Shown here: positions 7,664-63,905 of the stretch, in pieces
Position numbering within the stretch: position 1 is the first letter of the stretch
How the letters are laid out: every line of letters begins with the position of its first letter
NCBI GenBank assembly: GCA_947184155.2
Contig: CAMXCT020006578.1
Coordinates: 1,020,090-1,084,089 of the forward strand
DNA from: Cladocopium goreaui
Lineage: Eukaryota; Sar; Dinophyceae; Suessiales; Symbiodiniaceae
DNA: 64,000 nucleotides
Direction of reading: 5' to 3'
Notes under the pieces: model-generated
The model's database searches: none
What the model was told of the DNA's origin: nothing
The model's input: only the letters and a program-made list of their open reading frames with translations
Translations under genes and position numbers: made by a program

Positions 7664-8586
7664 ATGGGACCCATGGACCTGGTCGACTCCGAGCCAGCAC
7701 CTGGCGTCCAAGAAGAATTGAGTCGCTTCGGGAGGCGAATTCTGCGTTGTTTCCAAGTGCTTTGTTGTTTTGACGCACAAGACCTAGGCAAGGCTTTTGC
7801 ATTTGGGCGTCAAGCCGCTAGTCAAGCTGCGGAATTCGACCACCACTTGCCCAGCTGCCAGGGTCCTCGACAGTTTTTCACGGCGCATCCAAGCGGTGGA
7901 AAGGCTGGCTCCTGTGACTCCTGTGATCTTGAATCCATTCCTTATTTGGGTGTGTCTGAAAATAGTGTACCCCTAAACCCAATGGTTAATGATCATTATC
8001 CCTATTAAATGGCTATAATTGGGAATATACCCTATTTTCAGACAAACCCATTTGTTTTGTGGAGTTGGTCTGAAGAGTCGAACTGCCAGACTGCGAGAAT
8101 TGGTTCAAAATTCTTACCAATCAGCACTGATGGAAATATATAAAAATTACTTGCGTTGCTGATATATATTTTTTAACCACCACTTATATAAAACACACTT
8201 TCCTGGTGTTTTGGTTTGATGAAATATATTCAGCCGTCAGTCAACTTCAGTGGTGATTGGATGTGGTCCTGTTTCACAGGCGTTTGATGCACACCGAAGG
8301 GTGCCAGCAGGCCTGCGAGCGTAGAATTGGCCGACATTCTCCGTGCAGTCACAGCTAGTGGCTAGAAGGTGAGAGGTGTGAGCCGAAAATTCACGCAAAT
8401 TCAGAATCTGATGTGGATTCCACATCAGCGAAGATGATTGAGGACTGCCAGTAGATCCATTGGCAGTGGCCAAATTCTACCACATTAGTTTGGCGGGCCA
8501 TGTGGGCTTCGGAAACCAATTTGTGAGGCTCAGGAGTTGGAAATCCACGAAATGCGGCATGTTGTGGACAAGGCCAAGCCGCCTCG
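7664..8586 (+). CDS. unrecognised gene, about three candidate exons
   Basis: The first frame starts at an ATG (7664) and runs as MDLVDSEPAPGVQEELSRFG and LGKAFAFGRQAASQAAEFD until it enters a small palindromic element at 7947, which supplies the last residues. Two further short frames are plausible exons: SESDVDSTSAKMIEDCQ (about 8404-8454) and ELEIHEMRHVVDKAKPPR (8528-8586, acceptor GTGAG, donor CG|GTGCAG). The joins are not proven and no domain is recognised. On the minus strand a 146-residue frame at 7169-7609 is open but has no supporting splice or domain evidence. The AcnX gene follows on the same strand. Confidence 0.35.
7947..8050. mobile_element. small palindromic element, family A (TIR TGGGTKTGTCTGAAAATAG)
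   Basis: The left end reads TGGGTGTGTCTGAAAATAG. The right end is CTATTTTCAGACAAACCCA, its near-exact reverse complement. The core contains AATGATCATT. Related ends recur at 16534-16651, 20303-20505, 20645-21009 and 43540-43662. It is 104 bp with no coding capacity, which fits a MITE. Confidence 0.8.
8301..8371 (+). repeat. dispersed repeat, copy 2
   Basis: This is the partner of the segment at 212-292, sharing TAGAATTGGCC, CATTCTCCGTG and GGCTAGAAGGTGAGA in the same order. Confidence 0.65.
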
Positions 8587-19914: not shown

Positions 19915-21937
19915 GATGATGACGATGACGATGACGATGACGATGGCGATGACGATGAAGATGACGATGATGACGACGACGACGATGATGGTGATGGTGA
20001 TGATGATGATGATGATGGTGATGATGGTGATGATGACGATGACGATGACGATGGCGATGGCGATGACGATGAAGATGACGATGATGACGACGACGATGAT
20101 GGTGATGGTGATGATGATGATGACGATGATGATGATGCAGATGCAGATGCCCCACGTCCGGGTCGAACGATCTTGGTGGTGACAAACTGAACGATCCACA
20201 GCACCCAGGCCGAGCTTCAGCACCTCCTGCGTCAGCGCAGAGGTCGGTGTCCTGTGGTGGAGGCGCAGATGCGTTCCAGTGGGTAGAGGGGTTGGCCTCT
20301 CATTTGAAGTCTGAAAATGCGGTGCAACACCCGTTTATCCTATCCCTTAAATAGATCAAACTAGGGATTTGGTAGGGAAAAAAAAATGAAACACACGATT
20401 TTCTATCCTTCAAAATAATTATATAGTTCAAAATAACATTTTAAGAAAAATCATTATGAACCTTTTGGGGGGTGCTTGATTTTTAGACAAACCCATTTTG
20501 ACATTTTGATGTGGTGTGGAAACATATTGAAATCATTGAACATCCATGAATTTGCATGAAAACACCTGATAAAATTCAGACATAGCTGCCAAAAGTATTG
20601 ATTTTCTATCCCAATGGTTGCACTACACTACATATATCTACATATGGGTTTGTCTGAAAATAGGATATACCCCGAATTATAGACATTTAATTCATTCAAT
20701 GGGGATAACGTGTGACACCTTCACTCAGTGTGAAACTTTTGCTCAGTGTGACACCTTCACTCAGTGTGAAATTTTTGCTCAATGTGAAGTGTTTGCTACA
20801 TGGAAAGATTTCATTTCAATAATACACCACCAAGCAGTGAGCGAGGCCCTAGGTTCTTGATAGTAGGTAGGAAGCGGGTTAGTGCCCACGACCTGTGGCA
20901 ATGTCCATGCTATAGGTTTTGGCAAAAAAAATGGGGATAACGGGATAATGATCATTCACCATTGGGTTTAGGGGTACACCAGTGGGTGTATTTTCAGAGA
21001 AACATCCCAGCCTGGTCCCAGGTGTACCAGGTGTGGGAACTGCCTACCAGTCTGCCTGCCTGTGATTCTACGGTCATGGGTGGATCATTGGTAAATGAAT
21101 GGATTCATGGGGATTCATGGGAATTGATGGTGCTATAAAGTGCTATAGCAACTCTAATTACTACATATTTCGACATATTACTACTATGAGTTACTATGAT
21201 ACTTAGAATTTGTTGTTACTCTTCAGATGATCGGTGGAGCAGTGCACTTTACGTCATCGGACTGGTCCAAATGGAGAGCTACTGGCGTATCATTTCAATC
21301 CAGGACATGCACAGGAATGGTCGTTGTTTTGGGAATAGGCAGATGGGCAGTCAAGATGAGTAATTATGAGATATTACAACGATCACAATGGTATTAATTT
21401 GAGCTGCTATTATTCACCATTAATAACATTTGATAACCACAATCTACCATCCAATGATCATTTTTGGCAAAACCCATTGTGGCATTTGGGTGTGGCCAGT
21501 TCCCTTGGTTCAAGACCGTGTGTCGCTTCCTCAGCCAAGTCTTGGGAACGCTCTGGCTCAGGTCTGAAGAGTCTGAACATTCAATTCAGTATCCAATGTC
21601 CAATGACCGTCCACAGTCCTTTAATGCTGGAGGTCCGTGTGTTAAGTGGCCAGATCTCTCCAGCACCACCGCACCTGAATGGTGCGAGTCTGGCCCTCAA
21701 AACCTGCAGACACAAATGAAGAGCAACTTGAATTGGCAGGAATTGACCTGGATATTCAATTATGATAACATCAATAGAATGATTATCCAGGTAACATCAA
21801 TTATCCAGGTCAATTCAATGCGCAAACTAACATCAATAGAATGATTCTGTCTATCTGCAATGCACGATTTTGGCTCCCTGAGTGCAGGTAGCCATTCTGT
21901 TCCACCGGTCCTTAGAGGACCCGGGTTTCGATGCAGC
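16665..21937 (+). CDS. unrecognised multi-exon gene(s), possibly helical-repeat protein
   Basis: Several short open segments with good splice borders lie on this strand. FEAASLVGHVLSEQHQKSVD is near 16674, in a helical, armadillo-like style. VRALIDFLAQ is at 16824-16853, between AG borders. A Pro/Glu/Ser-rich exon (SAEGPPSFIPEPEKPESKE) is near 18430-18618 with an AAAG|GTAG donor. PAPSESDGTEKTTPQACLQL is near 18863-18937, LRQRRGRCPVVEAQMRS near 20206-20277, and ILFHRSLEDPGFDAAM near 21891-21937. The two large triplet satellites and two family A elements sit between these exons and would be intronic if all belong to one gene. Whether they do is unproven, and no family is recognised with confidence. 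A possible extra frame at 17590-17750 is ambiguous. Confidence 0.35.
17086..17568 (+). repeat. GAT/GAC triplet satellite, about 480 bp
   Basis: ATGATG, GACGAT and GAGGAT triplets run without a break, with a repeated sub-motif GATTATGAGGAT. Open frames of poly-Asp, poly-His, poly-Met/Thr, poly-Ser and Ile/Val type occur in most frames. They reflect the repeat and are not separate genes. Confidence 0.92.
19156..20146 (+). repeat. GAT/GAC/GGT triplet satellite with higher-order units, about 990 bp
   Basis: The tract consists only of G-A-T, G-A-C, G-G-T and G-G-C triplets. A longer pattern returns about eight times: GATGACGATGACGATGGCGA, then GACGACGACGATGATGGTGA, then plain GATGATGAT. The period is roughly 80-130 bp. 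Five frames of 340-414 codons are open across it, none of them a credible protein. Confidence 0.92.
20303..20505. mobile_element. small inverted-repeat element, family A relative
   Basis: The left end AAGTCTGAAAATGCGGTGCA is answered by TGCTTGATTTTTAGACAAACC on the right (shown in part: GATTTTTAGACAAACCCA). The right terminus again ends in GACAAACCCA as in other family A copies. The interior is AT-rich. Confidence 0.55.
20645..21009. mobile_element. family A element split by a later insertion
   Basis: The left end TGGGTTTGTCTGAAAATAGG and the right part GTATTTTCAGAGAAACATCC frame the same core as the copy at 7947-8050, in opposite orientation: GGATAATGATCATT, ACCATTGGGTTTAGGGGTAC. Between 20711 and 20930 a foreign segment interrupts the core. 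Without it the element would be about 130 bp. Confidence 0.75.
20711..20942 (+). mobile_element. retroposed insertion with A-tail and 12 bp target duplication
   Basis: ATGGGGATAACG occurs at 20699-20710 and again at 20931-20942, directly flanking a 220 bp segment that ends in a short run of A. This is the signature of LINE-type retroposition. The segment starts with about five 18 bp units of TGTGAAACTTTTGCTCAG type (20711-20800). It may be a SINE or an RNA copy; its source is unknown. Confidence 0.75.
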
Positions 21938-29962: not shown

Positions 29963-30072
29963 GTATTACCCTCTAGTAAATTAACATAGACCCTGCCAGA
30001 TAGGGGTTGGAAGACTAGTTTCCACTATAAATGAGTCATTCTCAGGGTCTATGTTTATTTACCAGAGGGTAA
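29963..30072. mobile_element. small palindromic element, family C (TIR TTACCCTCTGGTAA)
   Basis: The left end TTACCCTCTAGTAAATTAAC plus ATAGACCCTG is answered on the right by CAGGGTCTAT and GTTTATTTACCAGAGGGTAA. The same family occurs complete at 44850-44953 and partly at 58333-58416. Confidence 0.8.
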
Positions 30073-30757
30073 CACATATCAAGTACAAGTTTCATGCTAG
30101 AAAAAAAACATGCAAAATTCCGCAACGCGCCACGGTGAGGCCAAGCGGGAGCCACTGGCTGGCCTAGGTCTTCCTGGCAAAACCAAATCTGGTCGTCGCT
30201 GAAGAAACTGGAAACGGTGCAACGTGCAGCTGAAACGGTGCTGCAAAAGACGATGCGTTGCACAGTGACTCCCTGGGTATCTGGCTGTGGATGATGTTGA
30301 ATGCCATCAAGATGCAAGCGTGACATAGCGTGACATTCTTGGATGCAATGGTGCCAAGCTGAGGCAGAGTCCATTGAATCGGATTTAAACTTGCGAAAAG
30401 CTTGCGGTAGGAAGGAAAATGGGTTCGTATGATGGAGGGCTTGGGATCTAGGAAGCATATGGAACCACTGTAGATTGCGTGGTGAATTAGACATTGGACT
30501 GGACTCCGTCCGACCATTCGGATTGTCAATTCAACTAGAACGGCGAACCATTCAAACTCATGATGAGTCATACGCAGTTGTACACATTTTTGGATTCCTT
30601 TAAATCCGCACATTGAACTATGTTACTGGCAGCATCTGTCAACAGAAACGCCTGGGGGTTATGTCTTGTGGCTCGAACTTTGGCTCCATGGAACCTGGCT
30701 GCTTTTAGCTCGCTGAGGCAGACATGGCTTGTTCTGTTCCTATTTGTACTATTTGAT

Positions 30758-44849: not shown

Positions 44850-44953
44850 TACCCTCTGGTAATTTAACATAGCTATGGAAAATCACCATTCTTAATGGGA
44901 AAATCCACTATAAATGGTCATTTTCAATAGCTATGTTAAATTACCAGAGGGTA
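44850..44953. mobile_element. small palindromic element, family C
   Basis: TACCCTCTGGTAATTTAACA plus TAGCTATGGAAAATCACCAT is answered by AATGGTCATTTTCAATAGCT plus ATGTTAAATTACCAGAGGGTA (broken here for length). It is almost a perfect inverted repeat of 104 bp. The closest relative is at 58333-58416. Confidence 0.85.
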
Positions 44954-56110: not shown

Positions 56111-58590
56111 CACTTCCAGCTGTATCAGCTGTGGTCTGGACAGGAGTACACAAAGAAGGTCCAAGACTTGGAACAAAAACTGGACAATGAGGTGAGGAGC
56201 AAAATTGCTTGAGACGGAGGGTTTCAAAGCACCAGAGCAACGCTTTGAGAAAGGAAATGAATGGATGATGATACATGACATGGTACATGATGGTATATAT
56301 AATTATATGAATAAACAAATACATAAATCAATATTTAAATAAATTAATCAATATGTATATATATATATATATACATGTACATACATACACATACTACTAA
56401 TACTACATGTTAGTAATATAACATTGGGACATCGCAGGTTCGTCTTGTACACTGCACATCGTTTCTTGGGCTTTGGTCTCATGGACCCAGCCGCGAGGTG
56501 AGGCGGAGAAGAGTGCTTGAAGCACAGCTGGAGGACTGCCTATATCCCAAGAATGGGAAGGAGCAGGTTTCCAATGTTTTTTTTGTTCTACTGTTGTTGC
56601 CTCATGTTGTCTGAATACTTGTTTTCATGAGACCATTCATATATTCTATGATTCTATGAATCATTCATTATCATATATTGTGGCACCTTTTTCCTAGAAA
56701 CCAACGCTTGAAATGTCGAAACTGCACCTGCCTGTTGCCCCTCCGTTTCGACCCTTTTTTGGCCTGTGCGGTGCGGCAGGAAGCGAATGAACAGTTGAAG
56801 CAGATCCCAGAGCTACAGGATGGGCCACTGGCGATGGGACCCTGATGGGTTTGGGGCAATTTGGAGTTCTACTAATCCATACTAATCCATACTAATCCAT
56901 ACTAATCCATACTAATCCCTTCCCCATTAAAACAAAACAAAACAACCCCCAAATGTTGAGAATTTTGGATCTATTTGGATCTATTGATTTTGGCCCAAAA
57001 AAAAGATCCATCAAGATGGGATTGTCCACCAGGAGCAGTTGCTGCAGTCCAAGTTGCTAATGCTGAAGTGCCTTGGTGCAGAATTTGGACCTCGAGATGT
57101 GCAGAATTTTGTTGGGCTTTCTGTTTGGACCATTTTAGACCTACAAAAAAGTAAAAAAAGGTCATGATTTGGTGGATCAGACGCTATCCATTTTGGGATT
57201 CAAGAATACTAATCCATACCCTGATGAAACAAAATGATTAGTAGTTTGATGTTTGATGTATTGTTTTCATGATTGTGAAGTAGCAGCCCACACAAGCCGG
57301 CTGTTGCTCCTGTCTCACTTTGATGGGCGAAGAATGTCCGAGTGCGCGTATGTGTTTTTGATATTCTGGAAGTGTTCGTAGAGCAATATGATTTGATATT
57401 GTGTCATGATCTGTCCGTATGACATCGTATGACCACAAACATGTAGGACCCAAATAATTGTTCGTGTCCTTGCCCTCCAAAGAGAGAGTCAACCGTAGAT
57501 TTTGGATGATTTTGGTGGGTTACCCGCTTTTTTACATGTACTTGAATATTAGATAATATTAGCTATTATTGGCTTGAGAATTGTATCACATCATATCTCA
57601 GTTTGTCATTGTTTTCTTCCTGAAGATCCCCATTTGGTCAATATGGGTGCTGGCAAAGCAAGGCAAGTCGAGAAAGGAGTGGCTGCAGTGGGACTGGGAA
57701 ATCTTCATGCTGTGTGCCGTGTCGTTTTGTCGGAATGGCGGAGATGCATGGCGAACATTCGGTTCAGGAAGGGCTTGGGTTTGGGGAAAAAACTCTATCG
57801 ATCTGCATTTCTGATGATTTCCCTTTGCTTCACTGAGCTCTTATGATTGAGATAGGTGTGAGCCGAATCCAAATAAACATGTTCCGTCTCCAATGCCATC
57901 ACTAGACACCATTTCAGCTGCCACTACCTCTGAGGCTAATTTTTGTTGCTAAGCTTGTCCTGGCCTGTGGGTGAGAGATGTGAGAGTTGTTGTGCTAAGG
58001 ACTGGCAACGGTCACTTGCCTTGAACATGTGAACCGCAACCACTTTTAGGGACTCTTGAGTTGGCTGATGCGGCGTTCTATTTTAAGAACAGATCAACTG
58101 GGATGACATGAGTAAGTCTTTAAAGATTCATTTGGAGTCCTGCATTTTCTCTGAAGAGAGCGCCCGGATATTTTATGATATTTTCCATACAGTTTCATCA
58201 ATCTGATCTAGGATCACGCTGCCAAAGAACTCGTTCTTTTCCAGTCCATGCACTGACGTCACATTTTGTCACGTTTAGGAATGGATGAACATGATGCATC
58301 ATCCCATAGTCCCATACCATCCTATAGTCCCATAGGAATGGAAAATCACCATTTTTTATGGGAAAACTCACTATAAATGGCCATTTTCAATAGCTATGTT
58401 AGTTTACCAGAGGGTACCATCCTATTGTTATCCCATAGCATCCATAGCATCCACATCCGCCGCGAGGGCAAGATCGTGGACCGGCTGCGTCGCCGAGCGC
58501 CAGATGCTGGTCGCTGCCACTTCGAGATGGTGCAGTTGCATGAGGAAGGCATGGAACACCTCAAGGCAGCGGATAGCTGGGGAAGATGAA
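56111..58590 (+). CDS. coiled-coil-rich protein, short exons, unrecognised
   Basis: Phase-0 exons chain well. QLYQLWSGQEYTKKVQDLEQ is at 56111-56191 (donor GAG|GTGAGG). GLWSHGPSREVRRRRVLEAQ is at 56438-56566 and EANEQLKQIPELQ at 56780-56818. QEQLLQSKLLMLKCLGAEFG is at about 57017-57111, then VNMGAGKARQVEKGVAAVGL with VLSEWRRCMANIRFRKGLG at about 57626-57846. A last candidate, REGKIVDRLRRRAPDAGRCH, is near 58450-58590. The heptad-like Leu/Gln/Glu/Lys pattern indicates coiled coil, perhaps a cytoskeletal or motor-associated protein; that is inference. The join after ELQ falls inside a shared GATGGG word and does not give a standard intron. Confidence 0.45.
56868..56920 (+). repeat. 10 bp tandem repeat ACTAATCCAT
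   Basis: Five near-perfect copies lie in a row in an intron. A single further ACTAATCCAT lies near 57208. Confidence 0.9.
58333..58416. mobile_element. family C element, left end missing
   Basis: ATGGAAAATCACCATT then AATAGCTATGTTAGTTTACC and AGAGGGTA match the complete copy at 44850-44953. The left terminus is replaced by CCCATACCATCCTATAGT-type repeats. A more decayed relative (ATGGGAAAATCAACTATCAA then GGATTTTCCATTGCCATG) lies at 58610-58665. Confidence 0.65.
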
Positions 58591-58727: not shown

Positions 58728-58880
58728 GTGGGGTGGGGTGGGGTGGGGCAATAACGTCACGTACTTGCGCGCTCCCATGATGTTACGCCACGGCACGTTC
58801 ACTTGCACGTGCGCACATACGTCATGCTACGTTGAAAGATGTGTCACGTCACGCAGGGGTGGGGTGGGGTGGGGTGGGTG
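58728..58880 (+). repeat. ACGT-rich unit with GGGGT borders, left copy
   Basis: GGGGTGGGGTGGGG leads into CAATAACGTCACGTACTTGC, then GGCACGTTCACTTGCACGTG, CATACGTCATGCTACGTTG and GTCACGCAGG, then GGGGTGGGGTGGGGTGGGTG. The unit recurs at 63782-63905 in the same orientation with few changes. It directly abuts the left end of the 4.9 kb element. Confidence 0.85.
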
Positions 58881-59105
58881 CCCTATAGACCAGTTTAGAC
58901 AATTTGGTAGGAAATAGTTAATTCCAAAAAAAGTTAACTAATTAGTTAACTTTTTTTTAAGTTAAAAAAAATAGTTAGTAAATAGTTAAAAATAAGTTAA
59001 CTAAATAGTTAATAAAATAGTTAAAAATAGTTAAAAATAGTTAAAAATAGTTAAAAATAGTTAAACATATAATTAACTTTTTAACTTTTTTAAAACTATG
59101 TTTCA
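58881..59105 (+). repeat. left terminal inverted repeat, AT-rich
   Basis: After the conserved outer 45 bp it consists of GTTAAAAATAGTTAAAAATA words and a 20 bp palindrome AGTTAACTAATTAGTTAACT. Confidence 0.8.
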
Positions 59106-59159
59106 ACTATTTTTCTTCGGTTTCTTCATTGATTTTCATCATATTTGGGAAATGGAATG

Positions 59160-59480
59160 TTGCAAACTCTGTGAGATTGAGAGCCATTTTGAGAGGGGGA
59201 AGGGGAATGGGAGAGTCACTGTGAGGGTGAGAGTCACTGTGAAAGAGGGATGGTGAAAGTCATTTTGAGGGTCGGTGAGGGTCACTTTTTTAGAGGGAGG
59301 GTGATGAGAGTCACTTTGAAGGTGGGAATCACTCTGAGAGAGGGAGGGTGAGAGTCACTTTGAGAGAGGGAGGGTGAGAGTCACTCTGAGAGAGGGAGAG
59401 CCACTTTGAGAGGAAGAGAGTGAGAGAGAGAGGGAGAGAGAGAGTGAGAGCCACTTTGAGGGGGGGAGAGTGAGAGTGAG
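59160..59480 (+). repeat. degenerate GAGAGTCACTTTGAGAGAGG repeat
   Basis: GAGTCACTNTGAGRG words recur about twelve times. The words CACTTTGAGAG and ACATGTTGAGAG also occur near 60002, 60262 and 63150-63260, so this motif is spread through the element. Confidence 0.75.
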
Positions 59481-59717
59481 AGACATGACATGTTGGAAAA
59501 TCAGCAATGGCTTCTTTTTTGGCACAAATACATGTTTCAGGAGAGATCTCACACTTTGACATCTCACAGACACCAACACATCTTTAGATCATACACATAT
59601 CATGGCAAAAAAATGTAATACCTAAATCACATGTGTGGCAATCACACAATTCACACCACCACATTTCACATTATATCACATTTCACAACACATCTGACAG
59701 CTTTGGTAGAAGTAGCA

Positions 59718-59984
59718 ATGGAGGATCCGACCAAGCTGTACCTCAGGGGGCTGCCATATGCCATCCCTCAAAGGGATTTGAGGCAATGGCTTTGGTCATG
59801 GGGGATTGAGGTACAATCCCCGGTGCTCCACTACAACGATCCACAAACGCTTCGGTGCAATGCCTTCCTTCACTTTAGTGAAGATGCTAGGCATCATGTG
59901 CCAGCCTTGAATGGATCGTGGTTTGGGCAGCACCAGCTGGAATGCAGTGTGGCAAAGCCAAAAGTTGCAAGGTTTCTTGGCTAA
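59718..59984 (+). CDS. small RNA-recognition-motif (RRM) protein, 88 residues
   Basis: The frame runs from ATG 59718 to TAA 59984 and is almost entirely one RRM domain. KLYLRGLPY is the RNP2 strand, then IPQRDLRQWLWSWG is helix 1. A strand ending SPVLHYND follows. CNAFLHFSE is the RNP1-like strand, ARHHVPALNGSWFG is helix 2 and LECSVAKP is the last strand. RRM proteins bind single-stranded RNA or DNA. The RNP1 box is atypical, keeping the Phe positions but lacking the usual Gly. The frame is also open upstream to 59631, so a longer start or an exon acceptor (TTGGTAG) is possible. It sits inside the 4.9 kb inverted-repeat element. Whether it is a captured host gene or part of the element's own machinery is unknown. 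Confidence 0.7.
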   Translation: MEDPTKLYLRGLPYAIPQRDLRQWLWSWGIEVQSPVLHYNDPQTLRCNAFLHFSEDARHHVPALNGSWFGQHQLECSVAKPKVARFLG

Positions 59985-60029
59985 AATTGTTGAGTTTGTG
60001 CACTTTGAGAGACAACATGTTGAGAGCAG

Positions 60030-60345
60030 TTAGAGGAGAGAGAGAGAGAGAGAGAGTCAGAGAGAGAGAGTCAGAGAGAGAGAGTCAGAGAGAGAGAGTC
60101 AGAGAGAGAGAGAGTCAGAGAGAGAGAGTCAGAGAGAGAGAGAGTCAGAGAGAGAGAGAGAGTCAGAGAGAGAGAGAGAGAGAGAGTCAGAGAGAGAGAG
60201 TCAGAGAGAGAGAGTCAGAGAGAGAGAGAGTCAGAGAGAGAGAGAGAGGCAGCACACCTGGAGAGCACTTTGAGGGATAACATGCTGAGAGGATGGCACT
60301 TGGAGAGAGAGAGAGAGAGCGAGAGAGAGGGAACACATTCCTATG
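60030..60345 (+). repeat. (GA)n with spaced GTCAGAGAGAGA units
   Basis: GAGAGAGAGTCAGAGAGAGA repeats about fifteen times with slight length changes. A unit GCACTTGGAGAGAGAGAG follows near 60297. Charged Arg/Glu/Ser frames across it are not a gene. Confidence 0.93.
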
Positions 60346-60429
60346 TAAGGACTGATGGTCCTCATGGCTTACAGTCTCTTTGGCTGAGATTGGAAAAATT
60401 GTTGCTGTGGCACCACCCAAGAACTGGGA

Positions 60430-61455
60430 TTGTTTTCTTTAAAGAGTGCGCTCAAGAATTGGGACTCCTGGTTTAAAAGAAATTTAACCTACATGGATCA
60501 AAATTCTCACAGCCCAGGAATGCTCCAAAGGCAAGTAGCTTTCGATGCAGACCATCCATCTTCAAGACTTGGATCTATGTTTCTTGGCCAAAAGTATAGA
60601 TTGGTGGGGTTTGGTTTCACCAAGTGTGGTGCAAATAGTAGCATGCATCATGGATTTGAACATGCACTTTGGGATGTTAGGCAACCAGCAGAACCAGATG
60701 GACCTCCACCTTGGGGAAGATCGACACTTGGACGAGCCTGAGCCAGTGCAATTTTGTTCGAATTCATAATTCAGTGCAATTTTGTTCGCAATGGACGAGC
60801 CTGAGCCAGAATCAGAGCCGGATGTGCGGCTGTCTGAAGTGTGGGGCACACGTGGTGAAATTAGTGACCCTACTTGGATCTCGTGGACACCTTGGAATAA
60901 CCTCATCTGGATCAAGCACATGGGGTACTGGCACCTTGTCCAACGTGCACATTTGTCAACAATTTACAGTACTTTCACCTCTGAAAACTGGGCCGATTAT
61001 GGGGAACTTGCTTTGGACCTTGAAGTCGAGGAAGTCTAAGTTTGATTTTCTCGGTCCAAGTGTGGTGTTCGAGTTTATATACCAGAATTTTGTCGAACCA
61101 GTCGATCGACTTTGGAATTTTACGGACGCTGCTCGAAGCTGGAATTGTCGAAAATCGACTTTGGAATTGTCTTGTGGAAACAATCGATCGACTTTGGAAT
61201 TTTATGGACGCTGCTCGACGCTGGAATTGTCGAAAATCGACTTTGGAATTGTCGAGTATGCCAATGGCCAAGACTGCCAAGAGAAAAGTCAATAGGATGA
61301 TCTTGGAGTCTTCTGACGGCTGTGTGCTGGTTGTCAAAAAGTGCACATGTCACTGCATTTGTGCAAACTCAAATGGTGCACATTTCAAGATTGACGGGGA
61401 TATTGAACACATCATCAGCATCATCACAAGTTTGCAGGTCACATCGAAGGGCTAA
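60430..61455 (+). CDS. candidate exons inside the 4.9 kb element, unrecognised
   Basis: One frame gives VAFDADHPSSRLGSMFLGQK then YRLVGFGFTKCGANSSMHHG (stop near 60741). Another, from ATG 60791, gives MDEPEPESEPDVRLSEVWGT then WTPWNNLIWIKHMGYWHLVQ and stops at 61039. A third, after the tandem repeat, gives MILESSDGCVLVVKKCTCHC and stops at 61455. The segment GACGAGCCTGAGCCAG with TGCAATTTTGTTCG is locally duplicated near 60733-60800. The second frame looks most like real protein. No domain is recognised. Confidence 0.3.
61100..61262 (+). repeat. 82 bp tandem duplication with nested ATCGACTTTGGAATT
   Basis: GATCGACTTTGGAATTTTAC then GGACGCTGCTCGAAGCTGGA returns about 82 bp later. The word ATCGACTTTGGAATTGTC occurs within each copy, so the short word appears four times. 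Confidence 0.85.
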
Positions 61456-61866
61456 TTGCCAGTCTTGATCTCAGCAGAATCATCAAAAACTTGGCTTGAC
61501 CTGACCATCCTTGCATTTTATTCATGTTATCTGTTATCTAGAGAGTCAGAAAGAATTTGCTGGTTTCAGAATCCGAGTCCAAAGCATGAATCACAATCAC
61601 ATCAAACTTGCAACTTGGAACTTGATCCAAAGCACGAATCTCACATGATTCATATTCACAATTCAAATTCACACATGTGATGGAAATTTGAAATTGATCA
61701 TGATCATGATCATGGATATTGAACGCGTCATGGCGTCATCACAGAGCTCGGCTCAGGCTGGGTCAATCGTGATGCCCGGGACATGCCATGCCAGTCAGTC
61801 TTGGTCTCAGCAGAAGCTTCCATTCATCCTGACTCAGACCGTCCTGATGTCCAGTGTCACAGCTGC

Positions 61867-62057
61867 TGTTAAAATCACCAACATTGTAATTGCTGGACTG
61901 TACTGTACTGAACAATGTACAATGAAGAAATCAATGCTCATGTCTCAGACCGTCCTGTCTCAGACCATCCTGACGTCTTGGTAAAATCACCAACATTGTA
62001 ATTGCTGGACTGTACTGTACTGTACAATGTACAATGAAGAAATCAATGCTCATGTTA
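61867..62057 (+). repeat. 113 bp tandem duplication
   Basis: GTAAAATCACCAACATTGTA then ATTGCTGGACTGTACTGTAC and AATGAAGAAATCAATGCTCA occur at about 61869-61945 and again from 61981. From 62060 to 63070 I see no gene. Confidence 0.8.
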
Positions 62058-63539
62058 CACATGCTGTTCTCTCTCGACTCTCTTGTTGACATGTTTCAAG
62101 GTGCAAAAGGTACATCATCAGGTAAAAGACCAACGTTTCACCTTCGTCGTTTTTGACAAAATAGCACAGGTCAAAGGTCCGGAGTTCATAGATGTCCTTT
62201 TCCCATTGGTTGGTTGGAAGTTGATTAATAGATTACCTCTTTAACTTTAACAATGCAGGTATCTCAAGTAACTCAGCTAAATGATGATAGATGCCAAACC
62301 GGCAATAAAACATTGCTGCAAGAATCTGAGGTGTACACTCCAGCTTTTGGAAAGGCTGTGGTCCGAATATTCCAAAGTGTTTGGAATTCATAATTCAATC
62401 ACAATGCGAAACCTAATCACATTTTAGCTCCAGTCTCATGCTGAAAGCGGATGGAAAAAATCAAAGCTCATTTGTTCAGACTTCAGTTGGACAAGTGATC
62501 GAAACATTTGATTGATAAGTGATGGTGGACAAGCTGATTGACAAGTGATCGAAACATTTGACTGACAAGTGAACGAAAGATTGACACTGCAATCGTTGAT
62601 TGGCTAGCTAATTAATTACTAGTGGATTACGCATTTTAAAGGAAAAATTCGACCAGATGTGCCATCGGACTCTCTTTTGACTTTCTGCCATTGGCATCCT
62701 TGCCGACTAAGGTCTGGAGTACTGGGCCTGCTACCCCACTTGCTTGGTGAACCTGGTTCATTCACCATTGGACTCATCGTCCATGATATTATATTATGAA
62801 TCATATGTCACTCACATGTCCCTCAGATAATTTATATAATCCACCAATTTTTATGCGTATCCATTTGTACCCCAACCAAATAAAAAATGAGATAAAATGA
62901 AAAAATGTTAAAAACATGCGTTTTAATGGGATAAAATGCTTAAATATGTGAAAAAAATTAATGCGTTTTTAAGTTATTTTGAGTTTATTTATGCGCATGG
63001 GGGTTCACAAAGTCTTCTGATCTAAACCCGGCTGATCTAGGGTACTTATTATTTTTGGTGACTGAAGTTTAAGTTTGGCACGAACAAGAACTGGCATTGT
63101 GGCAAAGGTTCATGTGGTCAAGGTCTTAAAAAACCTGCAGGTGCACCACTTTGAGAGCCACATGTTGAGAGACCCAAGCACTTTGAGGGATTCATGTTTC
63201 TGGCAGCAGCCATGGTTGAAAGCCACACATTGTGAGAGGTTTTCTTTTTTGAGAGACCAAACACTTTGAGAGGCCCAGATTCTTATCTTGAGGGAACCCA
63301 CACATGTTTGAGATGCTTTCACAGTGAAAGAAAAAGAAACAATCACTTTTCATATTGTTTTTCAAAGCCACTGGAAACTCAGGTGTTCAAAATTAGGTAG
63401 AATAGGAAAAGATATTTGCACAGAATCATGAAACTATTGCTCACAATATGGTACAAAATGAACAAAATAGCATTAAATAACATAGAGACATCACATATTA
63501 ATCTTCAAAAATGATGTCAAACATCCTTCATTTTTTTAA

Positions 63540-63781
63540 AGATAGTTAAACATAGTTCAAAAAATCGTTCAAAAATAGTTAAAAATAGCAAAAAAAACTA
63601 TTTTTTACTAAATACTATTTTTAACTATGTTTAAACTATTTTTTAAAGCTATTTTTAACTATTTTTTAACTAAGGTAAAAAAAAGTTAACTAATTAGTTA
63701 ACTTTTTTTCTAAAAACATCGAATTAACTATTTTTCAAAATTAACTATTTCCTTCCAAATTGTCTAAACTGTTTTATAGGG
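63540..63781 (-). repeat. right terminal inverted repeat of the 4.9 kb element
   Basis: It matches the left terminal repeat in reverse complement: outer 45 bp nearly identical, then the AGTTAACTAATTAGTTAACT palindrome and ATTTTTAACTATTTTTTAAC words. Confidence 0.8.
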
Positions 63782-63905
63782 TGGGGCAATAACGTTCACG
63801 TACTTGCGCACTCCCATGATGTTACGCCACGGCACGTTCACTTGCACGTGCGCACATACGTCATGCTACGTTGAAGATGTGTCTCGTCACGCAGGGGTGG
63901 GGTAT
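63782..63905 (+). repeat. ACGT-rich unit with GGGGT borders, right copy
   Basis: The unit starts with TGGGGCAATAACGTTCACGT immediately after the right end of the element and ends in CACGCAGGGGTGGGGT. It matches the copy at 58728-58880 over about 115 bp with only a few changes. Confidence 0.85.

Follow-up and report, generated by a model that had tools for sequence, protein, structure and literature searches.

An RRM gene lies within a 4.9-kb element with inverted ends

We analysed a stretch of 64,000 nucleotides from the dinoflagellate Cladocopium goreaui (assembly GCA_947184155.2, contig CAMXCT020006578.1, positions 1,020,090–1,084,089 of the forward strand), hereafter called the window. At positions 58881–63781 it contains an element of 4901 bp that is bracketed by inverted repeats and carries a compact RNA recognition motif (RRM) gene (Table 1). 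The outer 51 nt of the two ends (58881–58931 and 63731–63781) are 88% complementary, and a longer alignment of 58881–59114 against 63781–63560 extends the similarity over about 230 bp (73% identity, E = 8.7e-27). The inverted ends of about 200 bp with a near-matching outer part, which an initial annotation had described from the letters alone, are therefore real. The termini of the element are CCCTATAG..CTATAGGG and thus of the CCC..GGG type.

Direct repeats of 122 bp with 97% identity flank the element on both sides. In the searched genome (1.17 Gb in 6202 contigs, with the window on contig C5937), the 122-bp unit has at least 90 matches (including the two in the window; 40 out of 136 candidates were scored) with spacings of about 121–137 bp. 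A long target duplication of 122 bp was thus rejected, because the flanking unit is a widespread tandem repeat. The empty site, reconstructed from the flanks without the element and with a single TG, is a GGGGT-type spacer between two satellite units, one of its repeats lacking a G, and GGGGT spacers of varying length were likewise found in two other satellite arrays that we read.

The ends define a family of mobile elements

The left end of the window element has many relatives across the genome. Its exact 24-mer occurs 32 times, as compared with no occurrence of a reversed-pattern control, and the occurrences delimit 14 paired kilobase-scale elements, comprising 12 exact inverted pairs and two elements (C361a and C2402) with one variant end. 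These fall into three size classes: three elements of 15.2–17.2 kb (C30, C1746 and C428), ten of 7.2–7.4 kb, and the window copy. The target duplication was checked in 13 of the 14 (C361b was left out), and in all 13 an identical dinucleotide stands on both sides (TG in five, TA in five, AA in two and TT in one). Two further short copies, with aligned lengths of roughly 460 and 520 bp, are present at C3846 and C227; together with a copy of 479 bp at C80, they fall in the size range of miniature inverted-repeat transposable elements (MITEs). The exact end has no match in viral contigs.

Specific ends paired around different cargo, together with a fixed 2-bp target duplication, identify a DNA transposon with terminal inverted repeats (TIRs). 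The search for inverted pairs with other cargo and a clear target duplication, which the initial annotation had recommended, thus bears out its view of a nonautonomous DNA element; the ends do not occur only unpaired, and the interior is not always one single-copy host locus. The nine 7.2–7.4-kb copies compared, all at separate sites, are 99.6–99.9% identical, and the three 15–17-kb copies are 99.5% identical (both over ungapped columns). Such near-identity at different sites indicates that the spread of the family is recent, and the family may still be moving.

A chance or satellite-driven inverted repeat would require that ordinary host DNA with AT-rich, low-complexity ends was duplicated together with the 122-bp flanking repeat. 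The inner ends, which consist of AAAAATAGTT repeats, and the satellite arrays on both flanks would suit this explanation, but the outer 24 bp are specific, as the control count shows, and identical ends, accompanied by 2-bp duplications, enclose other loci. We regard this explanation as highly improbable.

At C361:161700–170600 (L011), two element starts lie 8.07 kb apart and have a common 40-bp left flank, which is probably a tandem duplication that takes in an element.

Full-length copies carry accessory genes and a transposase-like gene

In C30, C1746 and C428, the genes follow one another on one strand from the RRM end in the order RRM, A5, A4, A3, A2, A1, T3, T2 and T1. The genes A5–A1 are the sole ones listed in the nine 7.2–7.4-kb copies that were read. 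C4300, to which the window copy is most closely related, has matches to RRM, A5–A1 and T3–T1 across 13.75 kb, after which other DNA follows; a right end of this element was not found. T3, T2 and T1 align in succession to a single intronless frame of 621 amino acids at another locus (L049), with identities of 36%, 43% and 36%, respectively, and are therefore read as exons of one protein. The resulting multi-exon gene T encodes about 600 amino acids, with a DDE-like order of motifs and no profile match.

The conserved points of T and its relatives are HGDG, a GD motif (QGD in T and IGD in three relatives), CxxC, a further D..H, HxxxH and WCFxxED. In T itself, CxxC lies in T2, and HxxxH followed by GED lies in T1. 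We infer from motif order and context alone that T is a putative transposase, and the assignment of its catalytic acidic residues is likewise a prediction from sequence.

A genome search with the T3 exon gave at least 145 matches (144 out of 422 candidates were scored), which are mostly distant; no relative of T3 or T1 was confirmed in viral contigs. Three distant relatives with long frames, L049 (621 amino acids), L050 (592 amino acids, still open where the stretch ends) and L051 (685 amino acids), have no relevant Pfam match, and many others among the T3 matches listed have frames longer than 600 amino acids. The distant relatives point to an unnamed transposase-like lineage, none of the six scanned proteins having a Pfam match. 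At one of these loci (C424:119000–133800, L052–L049–L053), an A2-like stretch (32% identity over 96 amino acids) lies upstream of the distant T frame and in the same orientation. This locus has no RRM match and a weak 30-bp TIR candidate only. Its arrangement may indicate that the layout of accessory gene plus T is old.

Taken together, we read the window element, with a probability of about 0.85, as a non-autonomous copy of a TIR DNA transposon family whose full members span about 14–17 kb and carry RRM, A5–A1 and the multi-exon, putatively DDE-type transposase of about 600 amino acids encoded by T3–T2–T1. The absence of a recognisable transposase, as initially annotated, is correct for the window copy and incorrect for the family, in which other copies carry the transposase-like gene. 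The suggestion of an undescribed class without a transposase falls for the same reason.

Several observations weigh against this assignment. For six of the 32 exact ends we saw no partner (C423, C1688, C2619, C3345 close to the end of its contig, C4300 and one in C5447), and the flanks of the 479-bp copy at C80 are TG and TT and form no matching pair. T has no match to any Pfam transposase model at E <= 5 among its three pieces and three distant relatives, and a profile search of PDB sequences returned no match for the distant transposase-like frames. In the distant relatives, CxxC is present in all three and HxxxH in two of three. Moreover, indels break up T in C1746 and C4300.

In their size and their inverted ends, the large copies also resemble a large-virus-like or Polinton-like insertion of 15–17 kb, of which the window copy would be a remnant. 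This explanation is highly improbable. Polintons make target duplications of 6 bp, and those of the family are 2 bp; among the nine scanned proteins of one full 17-kb copy there is no DNA polymerase, integrase, capsid or packaging match, and the Pfam scan of these nine proteins and of the three distant T relatives found nothing relevant.

The window copy is a probable deletion derivative of a C4300-like element

Comparison with C4300 shows that the two outer segments of the window copy are collinear with this element (Table 1), whereas about 11.7 kb of C4300 between the matching segments is gone. In its place, positions 60730–62160 are single-copy in the assembly apart from one 41-bp match, and positions 62165–62304 match two other loci at 84%. 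The adjoining MITE-like repeat has the ends TCACCA..TGGTGA, and the TCACCAGAAATAA end lost from the window's repeat precedes most of the other copies that were fetched. The window copy is therefore a non-autonomous derivative in which 2.1 kb of largely single-copy DNA and a truncated MITE stand in place of the C4300-type middle. The middle may have been lost by break repair with filler DNA. The transposase of other copies would cut and paste the window copy in trans through its CCCTATAG ends. No donor locus for 60730–62160 was found in the assembly, so host-gene capture in the interior is not supported.

Table 1. The window element, its parts and its flanks (positions in the window)
Feature	Position	Strand	Remarks
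Left flank: unit of genome-wide tandem repeat	58744..58865	+	GGGGT spacers; outside the element
Target site duplication, left copy (TG)	58879..58880	.	Identical dinucleotide on both sides
Left terminal inverted repeat	58881..59114	+	Opens CCCTATAGACCAGTTTAGACAATTTGG; 10-bp AAAAATAGTT repeats inside; from end alignment
Left segment collinear with C4300	58881..60730	+	Main blocks 88% and 95.5% identical
Purine-rich repeats	59160..59490	+	CACTTTGA motifs at 59312, 59356, 59402 and 59452
RRM gene, single exon	59718..59984	+	88 amino acids plus stop (59982–59984); kept in full-length element copies
GAGA/GTCA purine-rich array	60001..60330	+	CACTTTGA at 60001 and 60266
Inserted DNA replacing accessory and transposase genes	60731..62811	.	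From comparison with C4300
Putative 82-amino-acid open frame within inserted DNA	60791..61039	+	Open frame only; no Pfam match
High-copy MITE-like repeat	62812..63061	.	TTTTTGGTGA end kept, TCACCAGAAATAA end gone
Right segment	63062..63399	+	97% identical to the C4300 stretch downstream of the transposase-like gene; CACTTTGA at 63147, 63179 and 63262
Right terminal inverted repeat	63560..63781	-	Reverse complement opens CCCTATAAAACAGTTTAGACAATTTGG; from end alignment
Target site duplication, right copy (TG)	63782..63783	.	Identical dinucleotide on both sides
Right flank: second unit of genome-wide tandem repeat	63782..63903	+	97% identical to the left-flank unit; outside the element

The RRM gene belongs to the family and is conserved between subfamilies

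The 88-amino-acid frame (59718–59981) matches the RRM model PF00076 with E = 0.0011 and 19.2 bits, just under the gathering cut-off of 20.7. Among 18 PDB sequence matches at E <= 1, 14 are RRM proteins; the remaining four are a cytochrome oxidase subunit and three terpene synthases. A single-sequence AlphaFold2 model (mean predicted local distance difference test score, pLDDT, 63.6) has the order beta-alpha-beta-beta-alpha-beta, which is the order of an RRM. Consistent with this model, most of the 50 matches listed by a PDB fold search (of 56 at E <= 0.001) are titled RRM or RNA-binding domains, and the others listed are mainly chains of splicing, small nuclear ribonucleoprotein and ribosomal complexes. 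By its fold the protein is an RRM domain, with a Pfam score below gathering, and the compact RRM gene of the initial annotation is thereby corroborated.

A six-frame search of the whole genome gave 13 RRM candidates, all of which were scored, resulting in six full-length matches and one 28-amino-acid fragment. All matches lie within the transposon family (the window copy, C4300, C428, C1746, C30 and C3345, the last being a partial element copy beside a contig end), and the six full-length frames contain no stop. No host parent outside the element was found in the genome at E <= 0.001. Wherever it is present, the gene is no more than about 1.1 kb away from one end. In C4300, an inverted partial RRM copy (C4300:29195–29278, L024:7697–7772) lies just downstream of the intact gene.

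The RRM proteins of the window/C4300 type and the 15-kb type are 65–69% identical without indels. Between these subfamilies, the synonymous divergence (dS) is about 1.24 and the ratio of nonsynonymous to synonymous divergence (dN/dS) is 0.22–0.25, and synonymous and nonsynonymous changes differ significantly (Fisher p = 1.7e-6, rounded counts). The RRM gene is thus under purifying selection between subfamilies, and its ratio lies within the span of values for other genes of the element (T3, 0.29; T1, 0.12; A5, 0.24; A4, 0.35–0.42; A3, 0.41–0.45; A2, 0.10–0.12; A1 left out). Two points temper this result. The copies form two subfamilies and four of the six are near-identical, so that the test of selection draws in essence on a single deep divergence; and the window copy and C4300 differ by three synonymous and six nonsynonymous changes (ratio 0.55), which are too few to judge the window copy.

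It had also been proposed that the element captures genes. It would then be a Pack-TYPE-like element, with the RRM gene and the 2.1-kb interior as host fragments taken up by a bare TIR element. The interior at 60731–62811 indeed has no match in the relatives compared, and DNA transposons do capture RRMs, as in Turmoil-1, a Harbinger element of C. elegans whose RRM is, according to the part of PMC2572040 available to us, a captured fragment of rsp-2 that lies inside the inverted terminal repeats and is not under purifying selection. Capture of the RRM gene from the host was nevertheless rejected, since all six full-length genome matches are in the family and none is in a host gene at E <= 0.001; the gene is moreover common to subfamilies at dS of about 1.24 with dN/dS of 0.25, and the stretch 60730–62160 has no donor locus in the assembly. 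The cargo of a Pack-TYPE element comes from an identifiable host gene, which was found neither for the RRM gene nor for the interior, and capture is accordingly unlikely. Apparently, the RRM protein is the transposon's own, in agreement with the other initial suggestion, that the element encodes its own small RNA-binding protein. As far as that part of the Turmoil-1 report goes, both systems are DNA transposons carrying an RRM sequence, whereas the RRM of the present family is a complete, element-only gene that is under purifying selection between subfamilies and lies outside the TIR.

Comparison with known transposons

The maize En/Spm transposon comprises autonomous copies, which encode a transposase together with an accessory protein, and internally deleted, non-autonomous dSpm copies with intact ends, and repeated motifs lie near its ends. 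The present family resembles this system in having full and internally deleted forms with intact ends, in having an accessory protein and in its repeated motifs close to the ends. By comparison, the window derivative keeps its RRM gene, and the dispersed motif of the family shows strand asymmetry and is located in introns and spacers. The window copy, at 4901 bp and with an RRM gene, is not a MITE, for which non-coding elements of less than about 800 bp qualify.

The available part of PMC12730594 describes a CACTA-Mirage-Chapaev-Transib (CMCT) clade comprising EnSpm/CACTA, Mirage, Chapaev, Transib, Plavaka, ESTA and Lanisha, in which C(2)C and H(3-4)H stand between the second D and the last E, and in which the ends are mostly CA..TG and the target duplications 2–5 bp long. 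As far as this description goes, the family is similar to the clade in the acidic/CxxC/HxxxH/ED layout of T, in a 2-bp target duplication inside the range of the clade, and in the cargo genes beside the transposase. It is distinct in its CCC..GGG ends, a point that speaks against kinship, as well as in the lack of a Pfam transposase match for T, in its RRM cargo, and in HxxxH not being present in every relative. Because of the CCC..GGG ends and the lack of a Pfam or PDB match, we call the family CMCT-like and do not file it as a member of the clade.

A passenger gene other than a transposase is also kept in fungal DNA transposons that carry TET/JBP genes, described in the same part of PMC12730594; there the passenger is a dioxygenase acting on DNA methylation, whereas an RNA-binding protein is carried in the window family. 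Among the literature matches listed, including the accessible part of a report on introners (PMC7789003), no DNA transposon with its own conserved RRM gene appears, which is not proof of absence.

A sense-strand motif as a candidate target of the RRM protein

The motif CACTTTGA occurs in 14 copies (13 paired elements and C4300) 358 times in the sense and nine times in the antisense orientation. As nine of these copies are near-identical and three more are alike, one copy per type gives a fairer count, namely 10/0 for the window copy, 37/0 for C428, 57/0 for C4300 and 21/1 for C6092, or 125/1 in sum. The rest of the window contains two sense and one antisense occurrences, and 42 kb of other loci contain 1/0 (L046, which overlaps an element, is excluded). 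In C428, all 46 CTTTGAG occurrences lie outside the listed coding stretches, which make up 32% of the element; a first-order model of the remainder predicts about two occurrences.

A motif on one strand in introns and spacers suggests a role at the RNA level, and the element-specific RRM protein would be a natural candidate for its reader, with the sense repeat CACUUUGAGAGA and GAGA as putative RNA targets. We tentatively propose that the RRM protein may bind element transcripts through sense-strand CACUUUGA/GAGAG repeats in introns and spacers resembling untranslated regions, and that this binding might aid the splicing, export or stability of the transcripts. More speculatively, the family may encode a dedicated RNA-binding protein for which the sense-only CACUUUGA/GAGAG repeats serve as an address, so that the multi-intron transposase RNA would be spliced, exported or protected, and deletion derivatives like the window copy, which retain the ends, the RRM gene and some motifs, might act both as trans-regulators and as passengers. 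Accessory proteins of DNA transposons are usually regarded as DNA-binding. If the proposal is true, the family would represent a cut-and-paste element that controls its own RNA through a conserved, element-specific RRM protein and a strand-biased motif.

Three points run counter to this proposal. The sense motif is also present in the 7.4-kb elements without an RRM gene, one 15-base form of it shows no genome-wide excess over a reversed control (6 vs 5), and it may be a dispersed minisatellite. It is also conceivable, in an equally tentative way, that the RRM gene is an element gene whose product acts not on element RNA but on single-stranded transposon ends or on a protein partner, as a helper of the transpososome. 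RRMs can bind single-stranded DNA or protein, and the position of the gene near one end, in the copies that have it, would be consistent with such a role; the strand-asymmetric sense motif, however, is easier to explain on RNA.

Other repeats in the window

Another inverted-repeat pair lies elsewhere in the window, at 7965–8055 and 20640–20979, with its arms about 13 kb apart (97% identity over 38 bp and 88% over 52 bp). In addition, a dispersed repeat is present in three copies with 81–90% identity, at 44868–44953, 58331–58416 and 30021–30074.

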